Shown: piece by piece, positions 5,068 through 50,057 of the stretch | Numbering within the stretch: position 1 is the first letter of the stretch | How the letters are laid out: every line of letters starts with the position of its first letter | DNA from: Buxus sempervirens | Lineage: Eukaryota; Streptophyta; Magnoliopsida; Buxales; Buxaceae | Length of the DNA: 64,000 bases | Direction: 5' to 3' | NCBI GenBank assembly: GCA_947561395.2 | Contig: OX387195.1 | Location: forward strand, 23,203,126-23,267,125 | Program-made: the position numbers and the translations under genes | The notes under the pieces: model-generated | Database searches by the model: none | Told to the model about the DNA's origin: nothing | The model's input: only the letters and a program-made list of their open reading frames with translations

Positions 5068-6263
<1,196 letters not shown>

Positions 6264-18036: not shown

Positions 18037-18112
18037 GTCGGAGTTGAGAAAGACATTTTCCCTTTAAATGACTTGTCGGAGTTGAGAAACACATTTTCCC
18101 TTTAAATGACTT
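18037..18112. repeat. 38-bp tandem duplication in the copy C leader
   Basis: GTCGGAGTTGAGAAA and the following ACATTTTCCCTTTAAATGAC are repeated at 18037-18074 and 18075-18112, between the start codon and the putative TATA region. Copies A and B have a single unit. It lengthens the presumed 5' leader of copy C. Confidence 0.75.
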
Positions 18113-26750: not shown

Positions 26751-27129
26751 CAAACAGCTATATTAATAGAGGGAGTGCATACTGCATACACTAAAAACAA
26801 AAGAACCAACATTGGTTTTCAAAAAAAAAAATACAAAGCGAAAAAGAAGGCAGAATCTATCCATCCGCACCCTTTGTACGTCCCATGTCCTTGGCTTAAG
26901 AAAAATTCAGGGTTCTCCTTTCTTCCCAAGTTGCCTGATAAACAAACGGGATTAGATGCATTCACTCATTATCAAGGTTTCAGGTATAATCTGGTGCCAA
27001 TCTGTATAAGTTTCATATCGGTGCCAAAAAAGGCCAGCGTGATTTGGGGGTTCTTAAAAAAAAGGATAAAAATCCTTTTTGACTTGACAAACATGTACTG
27101 GTATTTAACTGTGGGGACTGGTTTGGCCA

Positions 27130-27667
27130 GTCAACAATAGCACACGATGGGTAAGATATGCATTTCGCCGGGAATGGTAAAAAAAAAGGATCTACATTCA
27201 TTTGGTATTTTGGCCTAAATTCTTTTGCCCCTCAATATTGAATCAGATCCTCTTTGTTGATGATTGAATGCAACTCTATACTCCCATTTATAGTAATTCC
27301 AGAACTCTTTCTTTTGTATCGAGGAACATCGAAATAAGCAAGAATGCTATTTTTACAGAAAATTCCATTTATAGGTACTTCAATCAAGATACTGAACAGG
27401 GCATTAGTTCTTTCTCTCTTTCTTGATTAGATTGAAGTGGGAGTATGAATCTATTTCTTCGCCTCTTTGCCAAAAAATCATAATTCCCATATAGAATGGT
27501 AGGATAACGAACAAATTCTGCTGAAAGAAACTAATTTTTCATTTAGAAAAACCCCAACCATCTGCCAATTAATGGATACCTGAACCCAGAAGCACTCCTT
27601 ACCCCACGTGCTAGACAAAAAGACGTCATTGGGGAATATCCAAGAAACTAACAGAATACAAGAACTC
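27130..27667 (-). pseudogene. rpoC2: nuclear insert of plastid DNA (rpoC2 fragment)
   Basis: On the minus strand the text reads as plastid RNA polymerase beta'' subunit: [32 protein letters not shown], then in other frames [39 protein letters not shown] and KEFRPKYQMNVDPFF. These match the RpoC2 C-terminal half in the right order. The frame is broken several times, including a TGA after EDLIQY, so it is a decayed nuclear plastid insert (NUPT) of about 0.53 kb. Edges are approximate. It lies in intron 10 of the helicase pseudogene, in the same orientation. Confidence 0.85.
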
Positions 27668-30072
27668 AATATAGATTTGATTTGCGAGATTGGTTAAGAC
27701 AATATAAGGTGTAAGTTTATGACTCGGTTAGTATGCTTGCATTCAAATCAAGGTTTACCATTTCGGTGCCGATGGGCGCCGCCCATCCCCCGAAACGAAA
27801 TTTCTCCAAACGGTGAAAAAACAAAAAAGGGCAAAAAATGGACAAAAACTGGATTTTGGGGAAATTTTGCCAGCACACCGCCGCGTTTTACCAATAAAAA
27901 AATGAACAAATTTTCATTTCCCTCCCCTGTTTCGCCCGGTACGCCACCAAAAATCGCCAGAGATGCAATTAAGCGATTTTCCTCCTCAGAAACGCATCAT
28001 TACCTCCGGAAAAACGAAATTTCAGCAGCACGCCACGAAACTGTAAACACTGATTCTAATAATTATTTTCCTATTTTATGTTTCATAACTCAATTGATAC
28101 TTGTGGTTAATGAATAAAACTAAATATTAGTATGATAGGTACTTCTAAAAGTTTCCAAAAACCAAATTTATAGAAGTTTTATAAGGAGTAAGATTTTTTG
28201 TCTCGACAAATATTTATAGTTCCAATGAGTTATAAATTATAATGAATCAGATTTTGATACTGAAAACCATTCCAGATTCTGTAATTTCAAGGTGAGACAC
28301 CGCCTCAAACCCCAATACCTGTAGTGGATCTTCATTAGTGAGTTCTCGTTTTATATCTCAAGTTCTGATTTCTAATTTTCCTATCTTTTTTTTTATTGGT
28401 TTCTCATCTTCAGTTACTAATTCTGTAAGTGATAAATCTATAATTGATCTACTTATATATCTAATTTGCTCAATCATTGATCTACTTCTTCATTCATTTT
28501 TGGTAGGATAACGTCATCTTTGTCAGTCTCCCCAACTTATTGGAACAAAATCAGATATACACCTTAAGAGTGACCTTTATTTTTACCTGTAAGTAACTAT
28601 CCCTGGACGCTCAGAATTGTACAGAAGCAGCCTTGCAAAAATTAAACTCCAAAGGAGCTAATTAAAGAGGTTGTGATGGGCTCGCTTTACTCTGGTCTCA
28701 TCATGTCCACCAAGTCCAAAGTCATTGAAAGGAATCGCCATAATTCTAAGAAAGAAGACCCAAAAAATAACGTAGAGATTAATGATCTCAAAAGCTTGAG
28801 ATGGTGATGTCTCATAAAAACTGAATCAGCTTCTACTAAATCCTAAATCTGAAAGTCAAGACATTTTGAGATAGTTTGCAGCCCAATCCAATACATTTTA
28901 GCCTTGGAGAAGCATGGTCAAAACACGAATGATCAAAGACAGGATTTCCATTTAACCACACCAAAGACGAGGAAAACTACTCCATGCTAGTCAAAAAGCA
29001 ACACATTATTCCGTAACTCTGAAGTCAAATATCAACTGATAATCAAATGGAAAATTGTATAATTGACCTTCAACTATGACAATTTTCTTCAATCTAGCAA
29101 GATCACCTCTCAGAACAACCCCCAACACACACACACACCAAAATTTCCTATAAGAAAGAAAATTGACTTGCCTCCCAACAAAAATAAGCGTCAAGGCAGT
29201 TAAGTGAAAAGAATCCATCATGGCTCCTTTTCCAGCTTATTCTATTTTGACCGCCCAATTGGCATAGACTCATCATTAAAAAATGAAAGACGGATTGTGA
29301 CTTGCCTCCCAACAAAAACCCTTAAGAAAAGGATCACAAAAGTATCCTAGTTAAATCATTTGAATAAAAAGAAGCGATAAGGAAAAACAGAACAGAAACC
29401 TAAGCATAATATCACTACACCAAACTTAATTTTAACAACTTTCTGACCACCATTTGATCCCATGGTTATAGTACCTAAATAATTCACAGATGATCTTTAA
29501 AAAAAAACTATATATGGCCAAACTAAGCATCTAACGAAGAACTCACTCATATTGGAGAAGGGAGAGAAAAAACAAAATCCAGATGATGTACTTTTCACAC
29601 CAGAGGATGTACTTTTATTTTATTCTTCAATATTTTTATTTCAAAAAGGTGATCCTAATCAGAAATTCTACAATTCCGTGCATAAGTTTAAATTGTTAAA
29701 ACAAAATACATCATTAGTTCTCCTTTGGATCATCAACAAGTTCAAGAAGAATTTCACCATCTCATAGTTATTTCATTTGGCAATTACTTTCTGAGAAGTC
29801 TCAAGGCAATTTAAGCCAATGCTTTGTCAAAAGGCAAAGTTCATTATGACTTTATACTCTGCGACAATAGCCCCGTGTTAATCCTTTTTCTTTAACTTTT
29901 TATCACTCATTTATGGATTTAAAAGAGCTTCACACTCTTTCTTACAATTTTAACAAAATTTTTTGATTGCAGATAAAAAAATTAAAACCAAACGAATCCA
30001 TTCAACAGGTGCCACAACAAATTGGAAATACAATAATATAGGATACATAATAGCAAGACAGAGAACTTCTAC
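27668..30072 (-). other. remainder of intron 10 of the helicase pseudogene
   Basis: No gene supported. About 27740-28050 carries GCC/GGTGCC-rich text with AAATTTTGCCAGCACACCGC, which recalls AATTTCGCCAGCACCGC at about 34995-35020, so both may belong to one dispersed repeat. The rest is AT-rich with poly(A) and poly(T) runs. Confidence 0.5.
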
Positions 30073-30367
30073 CAGTGTTTAAAAGGCACAAAACAATCTC
30101 GTCTAGCGCAGAGTTTGAAGGAGCACAAACCAGGACACGCACACGATATTTACGATTTGAATTCACTACTTCTGGTTTCTACACAAGTGGTTGGAAGTTA
30201 GAGGATTATAGAATATTAAGTAGCATCACAAAACATAGAGAACAATAGAACTTACCAACTCATTTCCAGTGGTTGGGAAAAATCCATCATCACCATCAAT
30301 GGGCATAATTTTGTCTCTAGGATTAATACCACTTAACCATGGAGATGCCTGCCTCCAGTGATTGAAT
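30073..30367 (-). pseudogene. MAA3: helicase pseudogene exons 9-10 (motif Ia)
   Basis: Exon 9 (30367-30256) reads FNHWRQASPWLSGINPRDKI then DGDDGFFPTTGNEL. Exon 10 (30178-30073) reads KPEVVNSNRKYRVRVLVCAP then SNSALDEIVLCLLNTG, the motif Ia region; the family has VLRLL where this has VLCLL. Splice sites and phases are intact. Confidence 0.88.
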
Positions 30368-32238
30368 CTGAAAACGACTAAAAAGATACTTGGTAAGATA
30401 TTCCACATTTGACCAGTTGAAAGGAACTATAATTAGTAGATACTTGACAGGAAGGGATGTGAGATGGCCTATGAAACACATTTTAGAGTTGTAAAGTAAT
30501 TCTGTTAAAGAGAGAGAGAGAGAGGAGAACCCAAAAGAATGAAAAGTGGTCCCAAAACATGTTATATTTGTTAACTAATTGATGAATTTGAAACAAATTT
30601 GTTTGTTTTGTGAGTCACTGGCAGAAAATTATTCTTTTGGGTTGACACTATACTGGTTTGTTGAACTTGTAACACACAACATGAGTTAACTGGTAAAAAA
30701 AAAAAATTTCCTCTTTGGCAACATTCATATCCATAAAAATGTTTACTTTCGCATTTTCTTGACTCCCATAAATTGTAATCTCTTAATAAACTGATCATCA
30801 TTTGATGAGAACAAAATGGATCACTCCCAGTTGATCTGGAATGTATAATCTTGATGCAGAATCTATCGCCCATTCTTGTTGTATTCTAAGGTAACGTCTT
30901 CCTGAGAAGTTCTGTAATTGTTGGCAAGAAGTAGAGAAGACTTTGGTTTGAACGCACAGAAGCAAATGCAGAGATTGGCAGATATTGTTATAGAAGACTG
31001 TTCTCCAGATATATTTAGGGCCCTCCAGATGAATTAGAATGATAGGATCTTTGATGGGGAGGATAATAGTTTGGAGTTCATCTTGACCAGAGTGTTAATT
31101 TTGATATTCAATCCAGTGGCTGTCCTCCCTAAACTTAAAAATGTGTCCTTCGGTGTAACTAATAGTGGGCGAGTATACATTGGATGGTTTTTAACTTTTC
31201 CTGCTCCTATGTAGTATTCTGTATCTACCTGGATCTTGGCCTTTTCATTCTCCTTAATTATAACCATAACCCAATAATTTAATATATGTCTAACTAATTT
31301 CTTAATATTGGTGTTCAATATGCCCAGTCCCTAATTGCTTTCTTAATCTCTTTGCATATATACAATTTATAATTAATTTTCCATCAAACTTGTGCGTCAA
31401 AGATTAGGATTGTTATGAGAATGAAGCATCAAATTGGGGTGAGGAAACATTTCCATATGGAAAACATGAATGAAGAAAAAAGAATATAAAAGATAATGTC
31501 GCTATCCAACCTCTAACAATCAGGTCCTGGCATTTAATCTGCAGCCACTATTATTAATTTCAGAAAGTATCCAAGTGCTTTGATGTTGGTGTCCTTAAAA
31601 AGCTAATCTAAACTGACCATCGAATACAAAATTGAACAACTAAAACATGAACTAAATGAGTGATGCCAAAATACTATGCGTGCAGGTCTACAACAAGGTT
31701 CCTATCTGTGTCTTCCTTAATATCCCTTCTTGACTTGGTTGATGGATGCAGGTCTATGATAAGATTCCCATCCTCAAATTTCTCTTCTTGTCTTGTTGCT
31801 AGATCCCTTAGTTTATGAAATTTGATGATTAGTCACTTAATTTTGGCTTTAAATTAAGTCCAAGTACAACTATAGGTCTTTATTGGGTCTATATAACTGC
31901 AACTTTAAGTCAAATATGGGCTTATGGTTAGAATAGGATTAGGTCATTCAATTGTTTATAGAAGAATCACAATGCTTTCTAAATCTTCAAAACATGACAG
32001 ATGTATGACCTTTTCCTTTAGTTGTTGATATATGCTTTAGAGGTAAATCATCAAATATGGACCTATCTCTTTTGACATGTGATGTGTGAAAGTGAGGCTC
32101 CAACAACCAAATTCTTGACTTTCTGATACAATTTATTATCTTCTGGTTAATCTTCCCTTTCTGTTATTTCTATTCGTATCTTAAGACTAAGAGATACCTC
32201 AGTAATTAGCTTATATCATAGTCCATTCCCCTCTAACT

Positions 32239-32690
32239 TGTCTCTCAATTATCTAGCATTTGAATCAAACTGTAGCAAATTTGTTAATGCACTGCAAGTC
32301 AACACCATTTCCTGCTGCAGAAAGTATCAAAACCCTCCCAATGTTATTCTCTAAAACCTATAATTGGCCAAGAGATGTACAAATTCACTGGAAAATGGCA
32401 ATCAATGCATTTTATAATTTTTCCATTTTTAGTTTATATAGATATAAATTCCCTTTCCCTCTGCCCTGTCTCTCAATTATCTAGCATGTAAATCAAACTG
32501 TAGCAAATCTTTTAATGCACTGCAAGTCAACACCATTTCCTGCTGCAGACAGCATCAAAACCCTCCCCATTTTATTCTTCAAAACCTACAACTGCGGCCA
32601 AGAGACGAACAAATTTACCAGAATATGACAATAAATACAATTTATTATTTTTCCATTTGTAGTTTATGCAGATACAAATATGAATCCTTG
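32239..32690. repeat. 228-bp tandem duplication in intron 8
   Basis: TGTCTCTCAATTATCTAGCA followed by CTGCAAGTCAACACCATTTC occurs at 32239 and again at 32467, with about 85-90 percent identity by eye over most of the unit. Non-coding. The rest of intron 8 (30368-32882) shows nothing recognisable. Confidence 0.8.
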
Positions 32691-32882
32691 TTCATGAATG
32701 CAGATACCATTATTAAAATTAGAGAAGAGATGCTCCTCAAATATTCACTCAAGGAAGCAAAGTAAGTGAATTTGGTGGTAGTTGTATGCAATCCCAATTT
32801 TTCATTTTCATGAACGTATAAGTGAAATTATCAATAAGAAAAGCACACCATATTTCAAGATAAATAAGAACAGAAACCATAC

Positions 32883-33221
32883 TTTTCCTGCACAGGTAAT
32901 TCCAGCCCACGTTTTACACCATGAAATCCTCCCCTACAGAAAAAGGAAACCAGACAAATTTACAAAATTGAATGTCAGCTGACGTATGAAAAACCACATT
33001 ATTTATTTGCTGTTATGCCCTACTTAAATCTCCCAGATAACACTGGCCAATGAAAAAAAAAATTGGTATGAACCCCAAAAAGTGAAAGTTGTTCAATCTA
33101 AAAACAGCAAATGGAAAGCCTAAGAAGATATTTACTTAGATTGAACTCTTGCTGGTGTCGCATGCAAAATGGCACTAAGAAGTCCAAGAATGGTCTGTCT
33201 TTTTCCGGTTCCTGGAGGACC
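32883..33221 (-). pseudogene. MAA3: helicase pseudogene exons 7-8 (Walker A)
   Basis: Exon 7 (33221-33136) encodes GPPGTGKRQTILGLLSAI then LHATPARVQS. The loop GPPGTGK is kept, but the next residue, normally Thr that helps coordinate the Mg-ATP, is Arg (AGA). Exon 8 (32933-32883) encodes KGGFHGVKRGLELPVQEK across the joins. It uses donor GTATGG rather than the GTTTCT three codons later, because only the first keeps the frame into FNHWRQASPWL. Confidence 0.88.
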
Positions 33222-36200
33222 CTAGAAAGAAGCATGCAACCACATACCACAGATTCAGTACAAGAAAAATCAATTAGAGCAAAAAGAAAGCAAATACCAT
33301 GAAAGCCGTCAAGGAATAGTACATTAGAAATGGGAAAGGTCCCTAGCTGATGCCAATGTCACATTTCATATAAGCAATGTCTTGACAAAGAACAATGGTC
33401 AAAGAATATATTTATTGCACAAAGAAGGAATATCTAGAGATACACTGCAATATTGAACACTGTCCCAAGCTTGATTTATGTCCTCAATATAGTTTCTTAC
33501 TATTAATGATACAAGAAAAGGAAAGGAGAAAAGGGAAAAAAAATAAACTAATTCAAACAATAGTCAAGATGTCACTGATGGGTGAATGGCTATGCTTATA
33601 GTTTTTATATCTCTAATCAGTAAATGGTTGATTTTTCCATAGATAAGCTGTAGCAAGGTTCGCCGTGCCGTTTCACCAGGGTCCCCGCATTCATCGGCAT
33701 AATTTCAAAAATATTATAAAATTTAAAATAATGATAATGCTATATTTTTACTGATAATGACTATAATATATATACACATAATAACTATGTTATTAGGAAT
33801 ATAATAATATCAACATAATTATATATATATATATATATACACAGACACACATAATAACTATATTATTAGGAATATAATAATATCACCATAATTTTATTAT
33901 TTTATTACATACACATTTATATAAATTATAATTTTTTACAATTCATGATCTACAATTTTTTTTATAATTCAAAATAATAATTTTTTTACAATTTTCTAAA
34001 TCCAAAAACTTGTATATATATTTGTTTTTTATATATAAATTTTTTTGTGATATTTACATTTTATAATTTTATATATATGTATAATTTTAAAACATTTTTA
34101 AATTCAAAAAGTATTTCTACATATATATCTATACTATATATAACGCAAGGCCCCCTTGGGAATCACGCTAACCAAAATGTGCAATTTTCCAAAACGGTGC
34201 TTATACATCATTGTGAAAATTCATTAATAAAAGGGTACAATATTCAAACTACTTCAATTTTTAAAAACTTAAAAATTAGTTGCAAAACTGTTCCCTCCCT
34301 GTCTCCTTCGTTCTTCGTACATGCAGTACTGCATGTGCACCCAACTAATTATATTAATGAAAGAAGGGCTTTATACCCTCTTTTAAAAACGAAGGACTTA
34401 TGACCTTCTTTCTTTACAGCAACAATCGGCAGGCTCCTTACCCTTCTCTGCAACAGCCGTCGGCAGGAGCTCAAGGAAAGGTAAGTAAACTAGGTACGAA
34501 GGACTTATGCCCTTTTTCTCTTTATAGCAGCAGTCGGCAGGCTCTTATCCCTTCTTTACGGCAGCCGTCGACAAGAGCTCAAGAAAAAGTAGGTGAACTA
34601 AGTATGCCGCCCTCCTCTCTCTCCCCCCACCCTCCTCTCCATCCCTCTCTCTCGCTCTCTTTTTTCTATCCCTTTTTCTTCTGATTTAGGTAGTGAGGAG
34701 GGTGAACGTACGCCCCACCTCCATGTTGCCTTTGTTTCTTCTAATCTTTGTTTTGGAGCATTTTTTTTTTTACAAGTTTTGCACGGCATACACACGGCAC
34801 GAAGTGTGTGCCATGCAAAGTCTATTCAACGGCACATATGACTACCATCGAAATTGTTCATTTTTTACTCGCACAAGGAAAAATTTCGCATGTGCCAGTC
34901 AAAACAAATGATGTTTTCGAGGAACGCTGAAACTAGGTGGTTTCAGTGCCGCTTTTGGCAGGCACCAGCAAAATTTCACAATTTTACCAACATGGGCGAA
35001 ATTTCGCCAGCACCGCAAACCATGAGCTGTAGAATTAAAGCAACCAACCAATACCATTTTGTCCAGAAACGAAAGCCATAGCAATAAAGCTATTTTCGTT
35101 AAAGGGATATTCATCTTCTAGGTTAAGGTGTAGTTATGGAAGTCAGACATGGCATGAGATGCTGCCATGTAGATCATCTCACGGTTAGTGTTTTTTCAAA
35201 TGAGCCTCACATGAAACATTTATAATACTTGAAAAAAACACTAACATTGACATGCTCCACATGGCACATCTCATTCTAGTAACAGTAATCAATGCAGGCA
35301 AAATTGCAGGCGATATCATCCCCTTTTTTGGGGGTGGGTAGTTTACTTTGGTTGTTGAAGCTTTTATAAATGTTGTTGGGAAAAGTTCTCTCTTCCCAAT
35401 CAATGTCGGACTGCAATGTTTGTCAATTGGGAAGAGAAAACTCTTCCCAACTAACATCCGTATATAGACAAACCCTTTCCCCTTTAACAGTTTAACTTCT
35501 TTAACAAATATATTTAATAATCTAAAAGCATTTTATAAATAAAAAGATTTGAGAATAAATAAAATTTTTTAAAAATTATTGAATTTGGATAAAAGCTGAG
35601 AAGTCCATATTCAGATTCTAAATGGACCAGAACCTTTGTAAAGATTCGTATTCAATTTGTGAAATACAGGGACATGTCCCTATTCGACAATTTCAGATCA
35701 AATTTGGATCTAAATTCAACTCATTGACAGCTCTAGTAGAGATATAGGGAACTTATGGACATTCATCATCTCATTTAAATATGAGACCAGTAGAGGTAAC
35801 ATATAAAGATTTATCATCTATCTTAGAAGTGAAAAAAATAAGGACTGCGATATTGGTCCAAGGAACCAATGGAGAATCATTATGGAAGACTGTAGCCATC
35901 AAGGAATCATGCTTGGAGACTTATTTGAGGATAACTAGACTTTAGGATACATATAGTAGAGGAACCATCTCTGCTCCCATATTCCCAATCTTTTGCAGAG
36001 GCTACCAATCATGCAACTCTAGTTAGTAACTAGTAATTACTTAAAATTCGGTGCCTCTGTGGATTGAATAACCTGCCACAAAAAAGACCTACTTGATTGA
36101 GACATTGATTTTCTGTGGCTATGCTGGACATCCTCAAACCTGCCCTTCGTGGGAGTGCAGAGTAAGATGGTTGATGGAATCACAAAAGGAACATAGGTAG

Positions 36201-37334
36201 TTAGGTCCTTTTCAGGCCCTAATCAGAGTCAGTCCACCAAGTTTTTTGGAAGACCCTGATGCCTTCCAAGTGGCTTTCTTCATGTGAACTTCCTTGGAAA
36301 AAACTCTTATAGTGGATAATCTCCTTCAAATAATTGTAAAAATAATGTGCAAGCAAAACAATAGCACCTTTTTATTTGAATTACCACTTTGCTCCAGCAA
36401 TATGGTGGCATTTGTTGAGGAGGTTTTCAGTGGAGTGGATGCAAATAATCTGTCAAGTTCGCTAAGTACCTTCCCTATTAAGTGCAGAGAAAGGAGATTA
36501 TCTTGGTGACAGAGCTTTGTTCTTTGGTCTTCACTTGGACAATTGGAAGAGGGACAACAACTAAAAGGAAAATAATATATTTTAAAAGAGGAGAGAAATT
36601 TGAACTGAGAAGAACAATATCATTCACTTCATATACATTAATGCTCGTTTTCTACAGAAATTTCAAGAACAAACTTCTCTCCCCTTTTCATAGACCAGGA
36701 TAATGTATCTATGTCTGGATATGTGTACACATTGCCTCCCCACATTTTAATAAGGTTCCCTTATTACTGTTGGAAAGGAAAAAGGTGAAGAAACACTACA
36801 TTATTTGTGATTAGAAAGACTTGGAAACTAATGATGAACAAATTTCTGAACAACGAGTTTGTTTCAAATAGCAAAAAGCGAACTGACTAAACCAAGTGAC
36901 CAACAAGCCACATATCCTAGAAAGGGATAACACTACAGAAACTACCCGAAGTCGTAATTATTCATTTACCAACTTGACTAATATTTGTGGCTGCAGTAAA
37001 CCACTAAAACCCCTGGTCACAGTACCTCAGTCCAGCTGCTTTGCATTTCTGTGTTCATCTGGCTCATAATACTCTTCATTATCCATATAAAAAAATAAAA
37101 AAAGTGGGTAAAAAAACCAAAAAAAAAAAAAATTTCTCCCCCTCCATGGGTTAGGTCAAATCAACAAAATCAAATATTTGAGAAGCATGAGCATGACAGC
37201 ATCTAGACAGCGGTTATGACTTATTTATAGTACCATCAGATTTTTCTGGAAAGAAAACCATAGAGGAAATATGAAAGATATGCATCAAGTAAGTCAAAAA
37301 GCATGAAGAGCACTCAAGAAGGCCAAAACCAAAC
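33222..37334 (-). other. intron 6 of the helicase pseudogene, repeat-rich
   Basis: 4.1 kb without a supported gene. About 33700-34140 is very AT-rich. About 34390-34603 holds two related 109-bp units (AGGACTTATG ... CGGCAGGCTC ... GCAGCCGTCG). A poorly defined dispersed repeat with GCCAGCACCGC spans about 34850-35030. At about 36100-36160 a plus-strand FCGYAGHPQTCPSWEC run recalls a zinc knuckle of LINE ORF1, but the match is too short to call. Confidence 0.5.
35195..35460. repeat. two foldback structures in intron 6
   Basis: GTTAGTGTTTTTTCAA at about 35183-35200 is complementary to TTGAAAAAAACACTAAC at about 35230-35247. A second pair lies around TTGGGAAAAGTTCTCTCTTC (about 35376) and GAAGAGAAAACTCTTCCCAA (about 35431). 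They look like remains of small foldback MITEs; no target duplication identified. Confidence 0.6.
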
Positions 37335-37803
37335 CTGTATGAGGACAAACTTTTGCCGTGAAAGACCAGCCTGCAGCAAAAAATATTTTTCCCAGAGAAC
37401 AATTTTACAAAAAATATAAAGAAAAGAGGAAAGGAAAAAGGAAACTATGGTATCATTAGTATAAAGGGAAGTGTCCCAAATAACATTAGTATATTTCCAC
37501 CTTGCAGTTGCAGATATATTTGATGAAAACATATGAGAACTCCAAATAGATCACAAGGGGTAAAAGGAAATAAAGAAAGAAAAAGTAATTATAATGTTAC
37601 ATGAAACTCACATGTATGGCTTCCAGTTGGGATGGATTGTGATTATTTTCAAGAAATTCCATGAGGGGTCTAGAAATTTTCCAGGCCTGATCTTCAGAGT
37701 TAGCATCCTTCTCAGCAGCTGTTAATATCAAATTCCTGAACGGAAGAGAGCCAATGGATCGCAAAGCCACATATTCACGGATGATAGTAGATAAACTGCT
37801 AAT
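37335..37803 (-). pseudogene. MAA3: helicase pseudogene exons 5-6
   Basis: Exon 5 (37803-37612, 64 codons) carries STIIREYVALRSIGSLPF and ends NHNPSQLEAIH, the Q-motif-like block before the helicase core. Exon 6 (37370-37335) is a 12-codon mini-exon AGLSRQKFVLIQ leading into the Walker A loop. Both keep GT-AG sites and phase 0. No lesion seen within these exons. Confidence 0.88.
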
Positions 37804-38949
37804 CTGCGTAGCATATTGCAGGAAAACTAACATGAAAAATTATACTTAAGTATCCATCAGCATTATATGATATTAAAATTTGTAAGAGAACAGCAATGCA
37901 ACAAGAACTTGGGCTCTTGGCATATAACTCCATTTGTAATCAACAAAGTATGATTAAAGAAGTATCCTTCTTCAGAACAATAACCATCTTCTTTCACCAG
38001 CTAGTTTCTCAGATTATTCCCAGATAAATACTCATGCAATACCAATAAAGTGATGTTATCACTAGTATCTTTCATTCAATAGACAATAGCGATAAATGCA
38101 TGTGTCATGCAAATATCCAATAAAATTGCCAAATTCGATGTAAGCCACCACAATCTTGAGATTAGTGGTTTCCTTATACTGAGTTTTTCTAGCGAACAAC
38201 CATGGCATGCACCAAGAAATTTTAATTGTCTGATCGTTAGACTGTTGGATGAGCCATACAATGCTCCCAGGTTAAATCAATCATAAAATAAGTAGTCATT
38301 GATCCGCTAGTATAATGAAATCCAAAAATTAAGGGTAATGAATATCAACCTGAGATAGGACTTGGGTTATAGGTCAAGATTCACTTAATTAGCGAACATA
38401 TCTTACCAGGTTTAGTTAACTATGGGGTTGTTTCTATACCAGGGGAGTGATGACTTGGCCCAGTCCAGAAAATCAATCAGACCAGGGACCTTTTACTATC
38501 TCGCCTCTAAAGATAATATCTCCAGGGTAATTCACCTTTCCCATATATTGCCAAAAATCTATGCATCATATAATTTGACAAACATATTAAAATTCTGCAG
38601 TATAAATGCTACTAAAATTTCACCCAAAATTTTTGGAAGTTCTGCCAAAAAACCTTGATTGCAGTGGCTGCTTCTGCAAACCTCTGTAAAGTATAAACGT
38701 CATTTTAGTTCAATCTTTTGCAAGATTCAAATTGAAAACTAAATTGAATAACTAGCCTTTAAAAGTCTAACAAGAGACACCAAGGATTTTGAAGAAAAAT
38801 AATCTAAATTGCTAATTTATCACGGGGTTTAAACTTTGATTTATTCTGAAAAAAAAAAAGGAAAACATTTGTATACTGCTTCAAAATGTATGTTGATGCA
38901 TCTACATGCATTTGAGATGTCTTGCTGAACCAATGAAAGTTGAAAACTG

Positions 38950-39200
38950 GAAACAAAACGAACACGAACACGAACGGAGGTTGCGAACACGAACGACGGA
39001 GGTTGCAGCGACGTCGAACGACGGAGGTAGCAGCGAACGGAGGAGCGACGGCGAACGACGGAGATTGTGAAGAACGGAGGTAGCAGCGACGGAGGTAGCG
39101 AACGACGGAGGTTGTAGTGAACGACGGAGGCAGCGACGACGAAGGAGGTAGCAGCGACGACGAAGGTAGCAGCGAACGTCGGAAGTAGCGAACGGTGGTA
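38950..39200 (+). repeat. GC-rich minisatellite in the LINE 5' leader
   Basis: Irregular tandem units of the type AACGACGGAGGTAGCAGCGA and shorter forms (GAACGGAGGTAGCAGCGACG) fill about 250 bp just before ORF1. The composition differs sharply from the AT-rich intron. In mammalian L1s comparable 5' tandem units act as promoter monomers; a promoter role here is inference. Confidence 0.7.
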
Positions 39201-41530
39201 GAAATTATGGATAGTAGGGGTGGTTTGTCACTCAGACCAAGAGGAGGGGGAAGTCGTTGGTCCTATGATAGGATGCCTTGCCAAAAACTGAAAGAGGTGG
39301 TCATCGTTTCAATGGGTCGATTTGGAAAACTCAGTTACGAATCCAACGGAAGGACCTACTGTTCGAAGGCTATGCTGGGAATTCTTGCCAGGTCGTCCGA
39401 ATAACAGAGAAGTGTAAACGACGACCACGGTGGCTGATACTACAAGAAGATGAGTGGAGATGGTTAGTGTCTAATACAGAATCGAGGATAAATCATTCGG
39501 GTGAGTACGAAGTGGTTGGAGTTATTAGGTCCGATTCAAAGAAGTTGGTCCTCGAGAAAAGGAGGAACAGGTGGGGGCATTTCTTGCAGTTATCTGCATT
39601 TGAGCCGAAGGCGACTTGGAGCTTGATTTTCCCGATGAATGTCGGGCAGCATGGATGGAGTCATGGAGATATATTGGTAAGGCTATAGAAGAAGTTCTGA
39701 AGAAGAGAGGAGATCCTGAGCACAGGATACCTCACTTTAATGGGAGGGCTTCATCAATGAGGACGAATTCACCTTCGTTGAAATTACTTGATGCCATTAA
39801 ACTAAATGGGGTTCGCGGTCAGGTTCAGAACATGGGGTGGAGCCCAGTGGTGGGTATATGTCTGACAGATAACAAATGGAGCATTGCGGTAATGTGCTCT
39901 CAGCCATTTAATACAACCAGGTGGGGCAAAATCCAAGATGCTCTGCGACGCATTCATGAACCCAGTTGTTCTATCGTGGAATTGCCTGCCAGAAAAGTTG
40001 TCATTTTCTCTCGCTCTAAGGAAGATATGGAGAAACTTATAAGGAGGAAGGAGATTCAGGTTGAAAGAAAATTCAAGGTTCGATTCTATCGACCAATGCT
40101 ACAAGGAGGGCTAAACGTAGGACTTGTTTCCGCAGGAGGTATTTGGATCAGCATAGTGGGAGTCCCACTTCATCTCCTTGCTCCGGAAACTTTGAAGACG
40201 TTAGGAAGAGTGTGTGGAGGTGCTCAGGAGATAGGGGGCATTGAGTTGATGCAAAACGACTTGTGTAAGATTTACATGAAGGTCAATGAAGTTTTTGCTC
40301 GTAGAATTCCATCTTCTATTTGCATTTGGGATGGGTCAGCTGTCTTTGAAACGGCAATTTCGATCCTGCCGGATAAGTTTTCTGCATCAGAGCGGTCATG
40401 GAGTTCGTTGCTGGAGGATGAAGATGATGATGTGGACAGTGGGCCCCAGCGTCAGGGGCAGGCCAGGGAGGCAGGTGGCGTCATCAGTACGTCTGGACTT
40501 ACCATTAATGCTAGCCAAGAGACCATTGAGGGGATTCATCATAATGGGCGATGGGCCCAGCCATCTCAGCTGATTGGATCCATGAGATGGAGGCAGGTTA
40601 GCCAACAGAAGGAGTCGGCCCAGGAGGTTTCTCGATCGCGTGACCAAGATATCTGTTTGGACCCTATCGGGCCAGATAACGAAGGACTTGAGTGAAGTAG
40701 GGCTGGGAAGGAGGGGGTCAGCCCTCGTCTTCGTCATGACCCGACCGAGAGTTCCCGATCGAGACGACCAGATCGTCACGGCTTCATATTGCAGGAAGAA
40801 GAGGGGGGAGCCAGCGCTTCACCCATCTCTGTTACCATATCTCAAGGGGTCACGGCGGACGTTGGAGACATTCCGACAAGGGTTAGAATTCCTTCGCCGA
40901 GTGTTGTGGAGGAGTTTCATAGCCAGAGTGAACCATCGGCAGGAGAGGAAGGATTTGCTAATGGGGCTGAGAGCGTGGAAGAAGCTCTGTTACGTAAGGA
41001 GGGTGAATGTATCAGACCGTTGGTTGGTTTTGCTGGCAAGTTGTGATTGCAATCAGAATCAGGATGTTATGTCCTCATCGAACTTGGTGGAAGAGGTGCA
41101 GAGGTCTCCACTGTCGGATAAATACGTACACGTCCTTGGAAATGTGGAAGAATCAGGGATGCAGAATGTCAGGGGAAGAGCATCAGAGGTCCTACCTCTT
41201 CTGGAGAACCATTGGCAGCTGGTGGAGAGCAACGAAGTAAGAGGCGAGTCCGTCAGCCCCATCGTTGCCATGTTACCTGAATCTCATTCCCCGATCCTTG
41301 GTCGAGAGCAGCTTTCAGGGGAAGAGAGAGAGGAAGAGCTTCAGGGGGAAGGAGGTCACTCGGAAAGGATCCTGGACAAGATAATAGTAATGAGTCAAGT
41401 GTTGGGGGTGTCTTTTGAAGGTTTTGAGATGGAAGCATTCGTTCTTTTCTTAGCCATAGAAGCTCAGCACGAAAAAGAGAGGGAAGCTAATAAAAAAGTG
41501 GCACGAGAGCTTAAGAAGCTGGCTTGGTAA
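39190..41530 (+). mobile_element. LINE ORF1 (nucleic-acid-binding protein), frame-broken
   Basis: Starts MDSRGGLSLRPRGGG, changes frame near 39270 (FNGSIWKTQLRIQRKDLLFE) and again near 39610 into the 39616-40695 frame (WMESWRYIGKAIEEVLKKRG). That frame has the DUF4283-like core with KVRFYRPMLQGGLNVG and GGIWISIVGVPLHLLAPETL. Further frames carry the Ser/Pro/Glu-rich tail, ending GVSFEGFEMEAFVLFLAIEA and KKVARELKKLAW at 41530. ORF1 of plant L1s binds element RNA and forms the ribonucleoprotein. At least three frame breaks are seen. Confidence 0.75.
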
Positions 41531-41601
41531 CGAAACACCGAGGATGTTAGGAGGAAAGAAGTGAACCCGAAAAGGGGTAAACAGGGGCTCAGAGGTGATT
41601 T

Positions 41602-44600
41602 ATGAAGATTAACATAATAAGTTGGAATACCAGAGGATTGAATGCAGGAGAAAAGAGGGTGACTGTTAAGTCTCTGCTAAGAATTTGGAAACCTGATGTT
41701 CTGATTATTCAGGAATCAAAGTTGGAAGAAGTGGATAGAAAGATCATGGGGGAGATTTGGGATTGTAAAAGAGTGCAATGGATCTTCTTGCCATCAAAAG
41801 GGAGTGCTAGTGGGATCATTTTGGCATGGAAAAGTGCGCCTTTCCAGCTTCAAAAGTCCTGGATAAAAGAGTATTCAGCATCTGTCCAATTGCAAGTTGT
41901 TGGCTCCTCAAAACCGATTCTGGTCAGTGGAGTGTATGACCCGAATGAGGTAACCTTGCAGGGTAGGGTGTGGGAGGAGCTAGAGGAGGTGAGGAAAAAT
42001 CTTCAGGGTCCGTGGTGTTTTGGGGGGGGGGGGGGGGGGGGGGGGTGGTGGATTTAAATGTGGTTAGGTATCCATCGGAAAGGACAGGGTGCAAGAATTG
42101 GACTACAGCAATGCAGAATTTCTCAGATTTTATTTACAGACTCGCATTGTTAGACATTCCAATATCAGGGTCAAAATACACTTGGTCCAACAAGAAGTCT
42201 TCTTCAAAAATTGACAGGTTCCTCGTTTCATCGGAGTGGGAGTCAAAATTTCCAAAATTTGCTTGTGAAGCTATGCTGAGAGTAATTTCAGATCATAACC
42301 CCTTGCTGCTGAGAAGTGAGAACTTTATAAAAGAGGCTACACCCTTTCAATTTGAAAATATGTGACTGGAAACTGCAGAGTTTGTTAACAAGGTGGAAAA
42401 GTGGTGGAACAAGCTGAAGGTTAACGGAACCCCGAGCTACATCTTAAGTCAGAAAATGAGGTTATTAAAAATAATTCTGAAGAAGTGGAATTATGAAGAG
42501 TTTGGAATGGTGGATGAGCAGGCGTTAAAGATGTTGACTCAGATAAGAGAGATTGATATCAAAACAAAGAAGGACCAATTAAGCACTACGGAATGGATGC
42601 TTAGGGAGAGATTGAAAACGGAGTATAGAAGATGGGCCTATTTGGAAGAAGTTAGTTGGAGACAAAAAGCAAGGGCACTATGGCTAAAAGCAGGTGATAG
42701 GAACACAAAGTTTTTCCACAAGCAAGCAAATGCAAGATGGCGGAACAATCACCTCAACAAAGTTGAGATAGACGGGATAATCTATGAAGAAGAGGAGGCC
42801 ATTAAGAGGAAGATTTCAGATGCTTATTGTATACAATTCAAGGAAGAATTTCAGTCTAGACCCAAGGTGGACGGATTAGAATTTCAGATGTTGTCAACGG
42901 AAGATAGCTATGGGCTAGAAAGACCTTTCCTAGAAGAGGAGGTAAAAGGAGTCATTGATCAACTCAACGGTGATAAAGCTCCGGGACTCGATGGATTCAC
43001 TTTAGCCTTCTTCAAAGCATGTCGGAGAATTGTTAAGGAGGACTTGATGGCTACGGTGGAGGAGTTCCACAAATCAGGGAAATTTGAAAGAAGTATGAAT
43101 GCAACATTCGTGGTGCTGATTCCCAAGAATAAAGATGCATACAAGTTGGATCAGCTCAGACTTATAAGCCTGGTTGGCAGTGTGTATAAGATCATATCAA
43201 AATTGCTTGCTAATAGGATGCGGAAGGTGTTGGATCCACTGATTTCTCAGACCCAAGGAGCTTTTGTAGGGGGTAGGCAATTGCAAGATGGAGTTCTCAT
43301 AGCAAGCGAATGCATTGATTCATGCCTAAAGGAGAAAACCCCGAAAATAATGTGCAAACCAGACCTCCAGAAGGCTTATGATAGTGTGAATTGGGACTTT
43401 CTGTTATATATTATGAGGAGGATGGGATTTGGAGAAAGGTGGAGAAGGTGGATTCATTTCTGCATATCGTCTGCTAGTATATCATTGTTGATAAATGGTT
43501 CTTCAGTTGGTTTTTTCAAGACTCAGAAAGGTCTTAGGCAAGGGGACCCAATCTCACCACTCTTGTTTACATTGGTGATGGAGGTATTTAGTAAAATGGT
43601 GACTCGACTTTCTGATCTTGGATCATTTCAAGGAGTAAATTTTGGAGGAGGCATTACCATAAGTCATTTACTGTTTGCAGATGACATTCTCATGTTCTGT
43701 GATCCTACTCATCATTCTATTCAGTGGCTGAAAGGAGTGCTACTATGTTTTCAGGCATGCTCGGGGTTGCAGGTGAACTTAGCCAAGAGCGAAATATTGG
43801 GGATTGGTGAAGTGGGAGGCCTAGAGGACTTAATTGTAGAACTAGGCTGCAAGGTGAATAAGCTGCCAATGACGTATTTGGGAATCCCCTTAGGAGCTAA
43901 ATTCAAGAATAGTTCGGTTTGGAACCCTCTACTTGAAAAAATGGAAAAGAAATTAGCGTCGTGGAAAAGCTGTATCTTGTCTAAAGGAGGCAAATTGACC
44001 TTGGTGTCAAATGTGTTGGCAGGCCTTCCTACATTCCTTTTGTCAGTCCTAAAGATGCCCATGTCTATTGCTTCCAAGTTGGAGCAAATCCAAAGAAATT
44101 TCTTGTGGAAGGGGCCCAGGGGAGAGGATAAGTTCCATTTAGTGAGCTGGAAATCAGTATGTAAATTGAAGGAGGAAGGTGGGCTTGGATTGAGACCTCT
44201 ACATGTCTTTAACAAAGCTTTATTCCAGAAGTGGATATGGAGGTACAGTAATGAGGCGGAGAGTCTATGGAGAAGGGTTATCCATCATAAGTACGGGTCT
44301 TCTTTTGGTGGTTGGTTTCCTCGTCAGCCTAAAGGTTCATTTGGGGTGAGCCTTTGGAGACCAATAGCAAGGGTTGCCGCATCAGTAGAGATTGATTGCA
44401 AATTTACTGTGGGTGATGGTAGGAGGGTCAGGATATGGGAGGATAAATGGTGTGGTAATGGAACTTTGAAGGACAAGTATAAAGCCTTATATAGTATTTG
44501 TAGGGACCCAGATGCCTTAGTGCATGATTCTATGGAGATAACACCTGCTGGAAAGGTGTGGAACATTACGTTTAGGAGGGAATTGCAAGATTGGGAGGTT

Positions 44601-45253
44601 GGAATTTTTGAAGAATTGCTGCAAGAGCTCTATAGTACCCAGCTGGACCAAGTGGAGGATGGTAGATTGTGGACAAAGGGTAAATCAGGCCTATTCTCAA
44701 TAAAGGAAGCCTATGCATGCCTAATCTCCATGGGATCAACAATTCCAGTCTATAAGCTTATTTGGACAAAATTCATTCCAAGTAAGGTATCTTTCTTTAC
44801 CTGGGCAGCAAGGTTAGACAAGATCTTAACTGTGAATCACTTAAAAAGTAGAGGTTGGCATGTGCCAAACAGATGCATAATGTGCAAAGCAGGCGAAGAA
44901 ACAGTAGAACACTTATTAATCCATTGCAATGAGGCTAACGATATATGGAGTAAAATTATTGCAAGGTTTGGAATATTGTGGGCCCAAGACAAGAGTATTG
45001 ACAAGGTGTACAAGCTTGGAGTGTAAAGAAAGGGAAAACTCGGAAGAACGTGCTGTGGAATGCTGCTCCGGCAGCCATTATTTGGGTAATCTGGGGAGAA
45101 AGAAACAACAGAATTTTCAGGAGTGTAGAGCGATGTTTACCAATTTTAGAAAGGAAAGTGCTAAGGCTTATGTATGATTGGCTGGCAGTTCATGGCATGA
45201 TGAATGACATACAAGTTCAGGACTTCGTCCTATGTCAACTATTTCTAGACTAG
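41602..45253 (+). mobile_element. LINE ORF2 (endonuclease and reverse transcriptase), few lesions
   Basis: An AP-endonuclease domain starts MKINIISWNTRGL with IIQESKLEEV and ends with SDHNPLLL. The reverse transcriptase has GDKAPGLDGF, KAYDSVNWDF, GLRQGDPISPLLF and the catalytic LLFADDILMF (about 43669-43698). Next is a zinc-finger linker (CIMCKAGEETVEHLLIHC) and a short tail WGERNNRIF to 45253; no RNase H domain. Lesions: a 24-G run at 42022-42045 where GGDFNVV is expected, a TGA for Trp at about 42363 (FENM*LETAEF), and a frame change near 45030. Otherwise the 877-codon frame 42393-45026 is open. Confidence 0.9.
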
Positions 45254-45689
45254 GTAAGAAATGGGCTCCAGAAAGGGGAGGTAGGCTGATGTCATCAGTG
45301 GAGAATGGGAAATGAATGTGGGTGTAGTTGAATTGTAAATACCCTTTTGGGTGCTGTATGGTGACTCCATTGTATCATGGGTACACTGTTTGTGAACCTA
45401 TGATCCAACTACCTAGTTTATTTATAATATACCTTATTTACCTATCAAAAAAACATTTATATTCTGATTTTCATCCCTTAACAAAATCATGTGATATAGA
45501 GAGACTAACAATCTATAGAAGATGAAATTTTTTTGGTTTTCATCAATGAACTCGTTCTTTAATTTTTATTTGAACAAATCAATCAATCGATAACTACATC
45601 TTATACTAACCAGTTAGGTCAGCAAAATGAATCCTCTTCCTCTATCCCAATCTGTCAAAAACAATATACTTTGGGTATTCAAATCCCTT

Positions 45690-46640
45690 CTAATTCACTC
45701 CATCAGTGTTCTTTTTTTTATCTTCTTCTTACCCTCTTAGATATATCAATGAGTACCCATTCACTCTTCACATCTGCCTTCGTAAGTCTTCACTTTACCT
45801 GCTCAAACCATCTTGCCTATTTTCATTTATCTCATCACCTATTTGAGCAGCACCTCACTACCCTCAAAAATTTTTATTCCTTATTTTTTATAGTCTCGCC
45901 ACACATCCATCTCAACATCCCCCATCTCATCAATGATCATTTATATATATACATATGTTTTTGTTGTTGTCTGATATTCTGATCCATATATCATAACGGA
46001 TCTCATTATTGCCTTGTAAAATTGTACCTAAGCCATCTAGATTTATTTATATGGGTAACATCATCATCTGTATACCCTGCACTGTTGATAATTGAACCAA
46101 TATAACAAAATTGATTACTTACAAGAACCTCTTGGTTCTCAATTCTTTGTGTTGCTTCACCTCTATCCTTATTTATACTAAAGCTACACTCCATACACTC
46201 GATCTAAGTCAACTTACTTTGAGATCTTTCAATTCAAAAATATCTCTCTTTAATTCCAATTTTGCATTCTCATCCTCTCTAGTTTGGTCCACCAAAGCTA
46301 AATCATCTACAAATAATATACATCAAAGCACATCATCATGGATATGACTATTTAATTAATCTATAGATTATTTTTTTGGATGGATAATGAGAGTTCGTCT
46401 ATAAATATAATTAAAGCAAAAAAATAATGGTTTATATCTGATCCTTGGAGTAAACCTATCATTGTTAGAAATTCATTTGTCTTGCGACCCACTATTCCTA
46501 CCCCCGTTAGCACTCCCTCATATGCATTTTCAATATATCTTATTAGCCTTTCTTTTCTTCTCAGAACCCCAAAATTAGCACTTTGACCAGGGAAGGACCA
46601 CCAAAGAGATAAGCCCTCCTCCACCATGTGAGTTGAGAAA
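45690..46640 (-). mobile_element. RTE-type LINE fragment (reverse transcriptase 3' half)
   Basis: Minus-strand text follows the RTE reverse transcriptase order: IRYIENAYEGVLTGVG, FLTMIGLLQGSDINHYFFAL, then DDLALVDQTRE, ECMECSFSINKDRGEA, QFCYIGSIINSAGY and FYKAIMRSVMIYGSE, then a broken tail. The catalytic block is degraded (RDD for ADD) and the frame is interrupted in several places. It is an old, 5'-truncated insertion in intron 4 of the helicase pseudogene. Confidence 0.8.
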
Positions 46641-47081
46641 TACCTGCTTTATTAGCAATTCTTAGCTTCTTTAAAACCTCTAATCACTAAGGACAAGCAC
46701 ATATTATGAACGAAATGATCACAAAATCATCATCATCATCATCAGCGTAATCCATTCCCCACCAAAGTGGAGTCAGTGGCACGAATTTTGTCTTTCCATC
46801 CTGCTCTATCAAAATCATATCTTCGGTTAATTTATGTTAATGTAAGTCTTGTTTTATTAACTCCATACATGTCCTTTTAAGTCTTACTATTGATCTCATA
46901 GGCCCTTCAATATGCATCCTCTAAAACCTTCTTACAAGTGCATCTCTATTTCACAATAAAGAAGACAAAAACATGGAACTGTCTTTTCCCACGAAGAAAT
47001 GTTCCTTTATTTTAACAGTTAGCCAAGATAGTTGCTCTTAAATTTGAACCCCTATGTCAATGTGAGAAAGTGAAATGAAAT
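46641..47081. other. intron 4 segment between the RTE relic and exon 4
   Basis: No gene seen. Contains a short CAT/ATC trinucleotide run at about 46729-46746. CCCCACCAAAGTGGAGTCAG (about 46758) looks like part of a dispersed plant repeat, unassigned. Confidence 0.5.
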
Positions 47082-47707
47082 CTATGAACAGTATAGAACA
47101 AAAGTGAAAAATTCACTAAGGAAATGACTAAAAGTAAAGAGAAAACAGGAAGTGAAAGACAAAGATGAAAGATAATAATAAAAACTGAAACCTAACTTCA
47201 GAATCCACAAGCCTTTCTTGTTCTCCTCAGCTTTGTCTACTTCATTAATAAATGAACGCATATTCAAAAGCCTCGAACAACATTTAATTTGATCTACTTT
47301 TATTTTCTTGACCTCCCCAGCTAAAATCATGCGAAGTCGAAGAAGATTTCCCTGATGGCGTTCCACCAATGCAAATGCATATGTAGATGGGAGTGTAGAG
47401 CCCTCTTGGAGCCCGCATCTTCTCCTACGCCCCCTCTCCTCCATTTTTACTGCATTGAGGAGAGGCTGCCATGTGTTCTGTAGGTCCCGCAGTTTGTTTT
47501 TAAACAAACGGCACCGTCAACCAACACTAACATTTTTCCATGTTTTTAAATGAAAAAGAAAAACTTAATAAAGGAAAAAAACTCACCTCGTCTTCAACAA
47601 CGAGTTGGTAAAGCCATCTTCAACAAGGAGTTGGCTTGGCTTTATTATAGCTGCCTATAACAGACGAACACAGAAATGAACGAAGACATGAATCCAATAA
47701 CAGGAGA

Positions 47708-47842
47708 AGAAACCTCGCCATGGGTGCTGATCAGGCCATCCACGACGATACATCTGCCGCTCTTTTTCCCCTCTCTGTTGCAAAGCTCCTCAGAGTCCTT
47801 GCTGACATCGAGAAACCTGGGCTTCTCATTCTTGGCAAACAG
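47708..47842 (+). pseudogene. ETFB: captured fragment of electron transfer flavoprotein beta subunit
   Basis: The frame reads NLAMGADQAIHDDTSAALF then PLSVAKLLRVLADIEKPGLL and ILGKQ. Plant ETF-beta (mitochondrial electron carrier from acyl-CoA and branched-chain dehydrogenases to ETF-ubiquinone oxidoreductase) has LAMGADRGIH, then PL..AK.L, then ENPGL...LGKQAIDDDC. Similarity stops exactly after GKQ at CAG/GTCTATC, a plausible exon-intron junction, so genomic DNA rather than cDNA was captured. About 45 codons; no independent function expected. Confidence 0.8.
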
Positions 47843-48066
47843 GTCTATCAAATGCTTCAATTTTACCTGAAGAATGCAATTACGAGGTTTTGTTCCTTTC
47901 CTTTTTAGTTTGTCTTATTTGGCTTGTGCGATTTGTGCGTTTCCTAGATCTCTTTGTACGGACAAGCATCACAAGAAGAAGAGCTCCATCCATTTGGGAA
48001 AACTCCAATTTCGACATTGACAACCTTTTTTCTATAATCGTTAGGATGTTCATGGGGAACGAACAA

Positions 48067-48183
48067 AGACATGAAGTTGGTGATGCATTGGATGAGCGGT
48101 GATCGTTCTCTCACTGTGTTTAGCATTCTCCACGCCTTCGTTCCCCACTCCTTTTCCTCTTCTCCACTTGCCTCCTCTTCCAT
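48067..48183 (-). pseudogene. THIM: captured fragment of hydroxyethylthiazole kinase
   Basis: From an ATG at 48183 the minus strand reads MEEEASGEEEKEWGTKAWRM then LNTVRERSPLIQCITNFMS. The SPLIQCITNF block is the N-terminal signature of plant ThiM, which phosphorylates the thiazole moiety in thiamine salvage. Similarity ends after ITNFMS, where the kinase continues MDL.ANTLL. The fragment lies opposite in orientation to the ETF-beta fragment, so at least two acquisitions occurred. Confidence 0.68.
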
Positions 48184-48469
48184 GGCCCTGTGTCTGTGCA
48201 TAGGTTTGAGTTTCCTTCATATACTGTTTTGAACTTTCCCCATCGACAAGAGCTGAAAGAGTCGATCTGCTGTTGAAGACGAGTTGGGTCTTTTTATTTT
48301 TAATTTTTTCGATTTAAAATCATTCAACCAAGACGTTTGTGCTGTTGACGTTGCCGTCTACTTGAAAGCAAAATGTGGGACCTACAAGCACACGTGGGGG
48401 CGATTTGTTGATGCAGTAAAAATGGAGGAGAAGGGGCGTAGGAGAAGATGCGGGCTCGCCCTCTTGAGA

Positions 48470-49438
48470 CTACATATAAGTCATAATAAATGCATAAAAC
48501 CTAAGAAACAAGTGCTGACAAATGCCATTAACCAAAATTTTAAGTGCCATTAATGAACCCAATAATTCTTACAAGATCAATAAAAACATCAACAGGCCAA
48601 AATAAAAGGTTATTCTCATATTTTCTAAGTGGGCAATCACTATAACTTTAATTAATGCTAATAAGTTACAAACTCAATAATTGAACATAGCATATAAAAC
48701 AGAACAATAAAAAAGTTTTTGCTTCAAAAAATTATTACAAGAACTTAAAGAGAGTGATTCACTAACCACTAATAAGGTTAAAGAGAGTGATTCACTATTC
48801 AAGTCAAATTAAACGAAAGGGATATCCATGGTTTGTGTCTCCCAAACCCCATAAAAGTAGAAAATAGTCTTCCATGATAAAAATTTATTCTGCCCGCAGC
48901 AATCTTCTTTATACCAGAATTCACAAGCTTAAAAATATCACAAAGATATCGACCAGAAATTCTGTACTTTTCAAAGCTTCAATAAATATTTTCACACATG
49001 AGCAGCTGCTTGTAAAAAAGCATGCAAGAACACAAGAACACATACATACAAACATTTAAGAGCAAGTTATTTCTTTTATCACCTAGGAATCATGCAGGAT
49101 TTGAGTTGTCTCAACTGAAACACCAAAGTAACGAACCCGCTACTTGGCTCTGACAATTGTTTCTGTTTTTGTTACTCGAAAAGTAGCTATGTCAATTTCG
49201 GCCAATGGAATTTTCAATCTTACATTATATTTCTCATCAGACGAATAGCATCTTCTTTGGAAATTCTTTCTATTCCTAACTTGATATAACAGATCCTCAA
49301 GTAATCATGAAACATGTATGTCAAACTGTATGAGTAACTATTGGAACAACTAGTGTGCATAGAGATAGACAACTATTGTTGCAAGAATTCATCAACAGAG
49401 TCCAAATATATTGATTTTAAACCCAAAGAGATGCCCAC
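48470..49438 (-). other. intron 3 of the helicase pseudogene
   Basis: AT-rich, about 0.97 kb, with no coding evidence. A short direct duplication AAAGAGAGTGATTCACTA occurs at about 48748 and 48780. Confidence 0.6.
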
Positions 49439-50057
49439 CTTGTCTTTTGAGAGTAGTAACAGATCATTATCCGATATTGATTCACCCTCGGTGGATTCAT
49501 AGAACACAGCGGGAAGGTGAAACCCATCAGCCTCACTGCATTCCGTGATTACACTAAGCTTCCAATCCGACACTGTCAAGTCCCACCCAGAAAAAAAAAA
49601 ATAGATAGTAAAAAATCAAATTAAAAAAAAGTACATGAAAAAACAAAAAATAAAAGAGAGTTCTATCCGTGTAAGAATCGAATTGATGAGATGCTGAGTA
49701 AAAATAAACTTGAAATTACTTCTTCTTCGTCTCTCCCTTGAACTATATGGGCCTTCACTTCTTCAAACAAAAGCGGTTCGAAAGTCCCAGTATAATCGTC
49801 AATGTCTTTGTATGTATCTTTCACTTTCTTCAGCCCCAACGCAGCCTCGTCGCCGACATCTCTTCCCTTTTTCTGCTTCAACAACGAAATAAAATAAAAT
49901 CGAACAATATTAAAGAATCATCTAAAAAAAATCAACTATCAATGGGAAACAGTACGTTGGATTCTCGGAGGAGACGCAGATAATCCCAACTGAGAACAAT
50001 TTTACAAAAGCGAGCAATATGGGCCTCTTCCTGAAGCTTGCTCTTCTCCACAGTCAT
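49439..50057 (-). pseudogene. MAA3: helicase pseudogene exons 1-3 (N-terminal region)
   Basis: Exon 1 (50057-49956) starts MTVEKSKLQEE and holds the conserved FCKIVLSWDYLRLLRESN. Exon 2 (49872-49720) gives VKDTYKDIDDYTGTFEPLL and FEEVKAHIVQGRDEEE. Exon 3 (49572-49439) gives ECSEADGFHLP and SISDNDLLLLSKDK. The family has Val at the exon 2-3 join, which needs a G before the donor. Here the exon runs GAAGAAGAA directly into GTAATT, so the phase is off by one base. A GA-rich tract lies in the leader at about 50085-50108. Confidence 0.88.

Follow-up and report, generated by a model that had tools for sequence, protein, structure and literature searches.

A probable Pack-MULE with fragments of two genes inside a helicase exon of Buxus sempervirens

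How does a segment of about 1 kb holding pieces of two unrelated genes come to lie inside a coding exon of a third? The question is raised by a 64,000-nucleotide stretch of the Buxus sempervirens genome (assembly GCA_947561395.2, contig OX387195.1, forward-strand positions 23,203,126 to 23,267,125; hereafter the window, whose own numbering is used throughout), in which a 1,049-bp element spanning 47409-48457 interrupts exon 4 of a SEN1/MAA3-type helicase gene. The ends of this element, its long inverted repeats, the 9-bp target site duplication (TSD) around it, the two opposed host-gene fragments inside it and its position in exon 4 are all shown by the DNA. Since a 9-bp TSD and long inverted repeats occur here together with two gene fragments and no match to a transposase, the element is assigned to the Pack-MULE kind of Mutator-like elements (MULEs). 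By anatomy, the assignment to a two-gene Pack-MULE is right, and it is highly probable that the element is a small non-autonomous MULE of this kind with the origin and insertion proposed below. A first-pass annotation of the same DNA had already read it as a Pack-MULE that carries pieces of two unrelated genes and lies inside a helicase exon, and the TSD, the inverted repeats and the matches to ETFB and ThiM described here uphold that reading.

Target duplication, inverted repeats and class

The element is bounded by two copies of GCCCTCTTG, seen by direct reading at 47400..47408 and 48458..48466. The 9-bp duplication is perfect, and these two plus-strand copies are the only ones in the whole window, with none on the minus strand, so that the flanking pair noted in the first pass is unique. 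Local alignment of the two arms with each other defines a left terminal inverted repeat (TIR) at 47409..47599 on the plus strand, which begins GAGCCCGCATCTTCTCC, and a right TIR at 48271..48457 on the minus strand. Both ends are inverted copies of GAGCCCGCATCTTCTCCTACGCC, the outermost 23 bp, and 46 of the outer 47 positions, counted from the alignment, are identical. Complementarity of the arms is 83% over the outer 71 bp and 81% over the next 43 bp; with gaps allowed, the alignment extends over arms of 191 and 187 bp at 76.4% identity (195 columns) and reaches a local score of 161, compared to a maximum of 29 among 200 mononucleotide shuffles. The earlier figure of about 130 bp is therefore fair for the well-conserved part, with the gapped extension reaching about 190 bp. 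When up to three mismatches were allowed, the outermost 23 bp were found in the window at the two element ends only, and in none of 100 shuffles. The exact 23-mer had no match in either the viral or the prokaryote collection, which is unsurprising for a plant element. The left TIR carries at its inner end (47591-47634) two copies of a short tandem unit, TCTTCAACAA(C/G)GAGTTGG, 26 bp apart.

No transposase was matched in the six frames given to Pfam, five of them lying inside the element and the sixth spanning its left end, from 38 stop-to-stop open reading frames (ORFs) listed; the first-pass statement that the element has none holds for these frames. The largest ORF overlapping the element (144 aa) runs out into helicase exon 4, and all others are of at most 98 aa. 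A Pfam match to an HD domain across the left end (E = 0.064) was put down to chance. Elsewhere in the window there were no long matches to the element interior; the weak matches seen, the best of which covers 43 bp at 81% (E = 3e-5, 21254-21293), are A/T-rich and so were not accepted as further copies.

TSDs are 8 bp long in hAT elements, 3 bp in CACTA and PIF elements and 2 bp in Mariner elements, and the TIRs of these superfamilies are mostly short. Neither these lengths nor short TIRs fit the present element, whose 9-bp TSD and long TIRs agree with a MULE, and we give only a very small likelihood to an inverted-repeat element of another superfamily (hAT, for example, with its 8-bp TSD) or a foldback element with captured gene pieces, even though no transposase was found that would fix the family and Pack-TYPE elements do occur among other plant TIR transposon superfamilies, as stated in PMC8903248. 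For the Pack-MULE assignment, the literature gives long TIRs and TSDs 7-12 bp in length for typical MULEs (PMC9168764), TSDs of 9-11 bp for Pack-MULEs, and thresholds of 100 bp and 80% for the TIRs of a tomato Pack-MULE library (both PMC3310237). The TSD described here lies within the 9-11 bp range, and the outer 71 and 43 bp of the arms together exceed 100 bp at above 80%, while the full arms of 191 and 187 bp, at 76.4%, fall under 80%.

Two captured gene fragments

The first fragment, at 47705..47842 on the plus strand, translates to RRNLAMGADQAIHDDTSAALFPLSVAKLLRVLADIEKPGLLILGKQ and was identified by phmmer and tblastn as part of a gene for the beta subunit of electron transfer flavoprotein (ETFB; LAMGADQAIH...LLILGKQ), with clear homology beginning near 47714. 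Against PDB, phmmer returned ETF-beta chains only (three distinct sequences up to E = 10), the best being 1efv_B at E = 1.6e-4 in the register LAMGAD...LGKQ, and tblastn with a sequence taken to be Arabidopsis ETFB gave E = 4e-13 with 57% over 46 aa. A PH-like Pfam match on the antisense of this fragment (E = 0.17) was put down to chance.

The second fragment, at 48064..48183 on the minus strand, was identified with NCBIfam and tblastn as captured from the start of the coding region, at the 5' end, of a gene for hydroxyethylthiazole kinase (ThiM). Its translation from 48183 to 48073 is MEEEASGEEEKEWGTKAWRMLNTVRERSPLIQCITNF, which starts at its ATG, and clear ThiM homology ends at about 48073. 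With this, the earlier description of two captured fragments in opposite orientations, ETFB on the plus and ThiM on the minus strand, is confirmed. That one of the two, most likely ThiM, resembles its family by chance is conceivable in view of its short length (28-37 aa), the absence of a match in Pfam or PDB, and a best E of just 0.02 when the piece was searched by tblastn against 72,556 plasmid records, 126 of which were matched. Four results speak against chance. First, ThiM itself was the sole NCBIfam family returned (E = 0.0018), with a score far under the full-length cut-off and yet with residues 17-37 aligned on profile positions 3-23, at the true N-terminus. Second, among the 20 plasmid matches listed, every annotated feature was thiM (14 rows; another four fell in unannotated records and two where no feature is given). 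Third, the start codon is correctly placed. Lastly, tblastn with a sequence taken to be Arabidopsis THIM gave E = 8e-7 with 54% over 28 aa. We therefore regard a chance resemblance as extremely improbable and retain ThiM as the second passenger.

A third candidate fragment was considered and judged to be chance: a minus-strand frame overlapping ThiM (48050-48313) matched the Pfam alpha-mannosidase C-terminal domain at E = 0.003, with NCBIfam and PDB empty, and the match was lost from a 44-residue piece that omits the TIR part. This rejection is not absolute, as the best of nine shuffles reached E = 0.049, so that the real value lies below every shuffle.

Several points weigh against this account of the element. 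The MULE assignment is drawn from anatomy, with neither a transposase nor a TIR family matched, and the probable origin of the passengers in ETFB and ThiM genes is read from the element itself. The Pfam ETF model gave the ETFB fragment E = 0.091, under the cut-off, and NCBIfam returned no ETF model for it, just a chance match at E = 0.1; the shortness of the ThiM piece and its lack of a Pfam or PDB match belong here as well.

Both fragments had been said to end at plausible exon borders. This stands for the right end of ETFB, where GKQ is followed by GTCTAT and resembles a splice donor, but not for its left end, which has no AG directly before it, nor for ThiM, which begins at its ATG. The middle segment that follows the GT (47843..48063) is possibly ETFB intron together with unassigned DNA; we suggest from its position next to the donor-like GT that it is possibly in part of ETFB intron origin. 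A frame running through it (47806-48099) had no Pfam match.

A repeat search found an 18-bp imperfect direct repeat near the outer limit of the ETFB fragment and at the inner limit of the ThiM fragment, with copies on the plus strand at 47675..47692, some 21 bp before the ETFB homology begins, and at 48058..48075, straddling the inner end of the ThiM fragment. The copies agree at 16 of 18 positions. A pair of 18-mers with 16 matches did not arise in any of 200 dinucleotide shuffles of the 671-bp core, while 15 matches were reached in 18 of the 200. At this distance from the ETFB homology, the left copy is near the junction and not at it. For animal Pack-TIR elements, PMC8277862 reports template switching and capture breakpoints that show microhomology, and by analogy the same process may have operated in this element. 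That the repeat is a footprint of assembly, formed as templated filler or as the local similarity that steered a template switch, and so shows directly in the sequence that two genes were stitched together replicatively in a plant Pack-MULE, is a tentative idea that we consider rather doubtful.

The proposed history of the element would begin at another locus, where two inverted repeats would have enclosed a break or gap. Its filling would have copied in parts of an ETFB gene and of a ThiM gene, and the copying may have switched templates at short stretches of similarity. A transposase from an autonomous relative would then have bound the inverted repeats and moved the element into the helicase gene, where insertion would have duplicated 9 bp.

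Insertion in a probably decaying helicase gene

The insertion lies in a SEN1/MAA3-type SF1 helicase locus on the minus strand, which runs from the ATG to the last recognised exon match over 20481..50057 and was delineated by tblastn and PDB matches. A sequence taken to be Arabidopsis MAA3 (MAGATAMA3) gave, by tblastn, an ordered series of exon matches from 50057 to 20481. Independently of that query, PDB matches of the joined core were to a 5'-3' RNA helicase-like protein, at E = 1.2e-85, and to SEN1, at E = 8.3e-84. One exon piece matched Pfam AAA_12 (E = 1.8e-11), and the exon 3 piece had no Pfam match. The gene spans about 30 kb with large introns, and the intron between exons 4 and 5 contains a long ORF of long interspersed nuclear element (LINE) type for reverse transcriptase (42366-45026, plus strand).

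Exon 4 is split by the element. Its first 12 bases, consisting of TCT and one TSD copy, lie at 48458..48469 after the acceptor TATATGTAG, as read from the join, and its main part downstream of the insertion, which includes the other TSD copy, lies at 47197..47408 (both minus strand). The main part is supported by the in-frame join and by a tblastn match of the MAA3 query at 47405-47247 (E = 7e-8); of several candidate donors, GTTAGG at 47196 is the most likely. When the site is joined over one TSD copy, as in an empty site, the frame is open from exon 3 through exon 4 (...DLLLLSKDK-SQEG-STLPSTYAFALVERHQ). The element thus sits 3 bp inside exon 4, behind TCT and at the target duplication, as the first-pass annotation had placed it. 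The occupied site instead reads ...SQEGEPASSPTP... and then a stop, so that the element breaks the helicase frame and a read-through protein would end after 49 codons of the interrupted exon.

Could splicing within the inverted repeats rescue the helicase frame, with the element serving as an alternative exon that functions, or as an intron that can be removed, and the insertion being tolerated? Four in-frame, stop-free acceptors can be reached from exon 3 (TACAG, TGGCAG and two AGs with purine-rich surroundings), and inside the element 26 donor-acceptor pairs keep the frame. However, such acceptors were offered by 174 of 300 mononucleotide-shuffled elements and such introns by 153 of 300, which is to say that these splices occur at chance level and are no evidence of function, and the helicase has further lesions downstream. 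A rescue of this kind is highly unlikely, and we keep to an insertion that breaks the frame.

The lesions show that the host copy is not healthy, a point overlooked when the element was first placed, correctly, in a helicase coding exon. The stretches that we take to be Walker A and motif III are not intact, reading GPPGTGKR at 33221-33195 (GPPGTGKT in the aligned PDB chain) and GDLVQLP at 22049-22027 (GDPKQLP in the aligned PDB chain). The reading frame is interrupted by an in-frame TGA at 21444-21442, which precedes two conserved stretches, GFQGRE and VGITRAR, by a frame change in exon 17 near 20706-20683, and by a second in-frame TGA at 20543-20541. GT-AG borders were assigned by eye, and joins 4/5, 8/9 and 14/15 were tested by script. 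Each of the three has at least one in-frame splice choice, and the frame breaks considered at 4/5 and 8/9 were dropped since in-frame GT-AG choices are present; what speaks for a pseudogene is therefore the pair of stops, the frameshift and the substitutions in two motifs. This intactness of the joins counts on the other side of the balance, as does assembly error, which is possible for single bases and unlikely for all of the lesions. Taken from the sequence, this helicase copy is most likely a pseudogene. It resembles MAA3 and SEN1 helicases in its ordered exons and in its matches to SEN1-like helicase and SEN1 in PDB, and differs from them in its altered Walker A and motif III, in its stops and frameshift, and in the Pack-MULE inserted in it. 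With a pseudogene-like host, insertion in a coding exon is no puzzle. The element may have persisted without cost in an already damaged copy, or its insertion may itself have begun the decay.

The wider window and known Pack-MULEs

Among ten window proteins scanned, three were LINE-type reverse transcriptase or RNase H ORFs. Besides the one in the helicase intron, a reverse transcriptase ORF lies at 62025-63752 (Pfam RVT_1, E = 4e-36) and a zf-RVT/RVT_3 ORF at 11601-12719 (RVT_3, E = 5.5e-22). These LINE-type ORFs were the basis of a comparison with the Pack-MULEs of sacred lotus (PMC4053705), which indicates compatibility only. The N-terminal exon of a plant 2-oxoglutarate dioxygenase (DIOX_N) is present in three repeated copies on the minus strand (108-797, 8808-9521 and 17379-18101), accompanied by ORFs at 6264-6539 and 14818-15093 that, compared by eye, are very similar. 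A GH18 chitinase-like ORF at 5068-5628 covers only the first part of its domain (profile positions 19-134 of 317) and is possibly truncated. Together with the MAA3 match, the plant-type dioxygenase, chitinase-like and LINE ORFs by themselves point to a plant as the most likely source of the window.

Pack-MULEs are known from rice, tomato and other plants (Jiang et al. 2004, as cited in PMC12030055 and PMC9168764; for tomato PM-ZIBP, PMC3310237). The present element resembles such Pack-MULEs in its long inverted repeats, 9-bp TSD, length of about 1 kb, captured gene pieces and lack of a detected transposase, and differs in that a coding exon of a decaying helicase was hit. Sizes of tomato Pack-MULEs peak at 1000-1200 bp (PMC3310237), and insertions of Pack-TYPE elements in and near exons are reported in PMC8903248. 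The first pass had further inferred that the joint capture of ETF-beta and ThiM is novel. Within the open-access papers searched, none was found that pairs a Pack-MULE with thiamine or electron transfer flavoprotein, but the claim is overstated: capture from several loci is known, with segments of multiple loci in "about a fifth" of Pack-MULEs (PMC12030055) and fragments of several genes in some (PMC9168764). Any newly found Pack-MULE can be expected to bring a new pair of passengers, and no functional link between ETFB and ThiM is evident.

The element is genuine and well formed and, as a member of a well-known kind, ordinary. It contributes a single case, clean and intact, in which more than one gene was captured and the empty site could be tested well, and it shows a Pack-MULE residing in a decaying SEN1/MAA3-type helicase copy. 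If the 18-bp junction repeat were indeed a footprint of capture, it would be relevant to the question of how DNA is taken up by Pack-MULEs.
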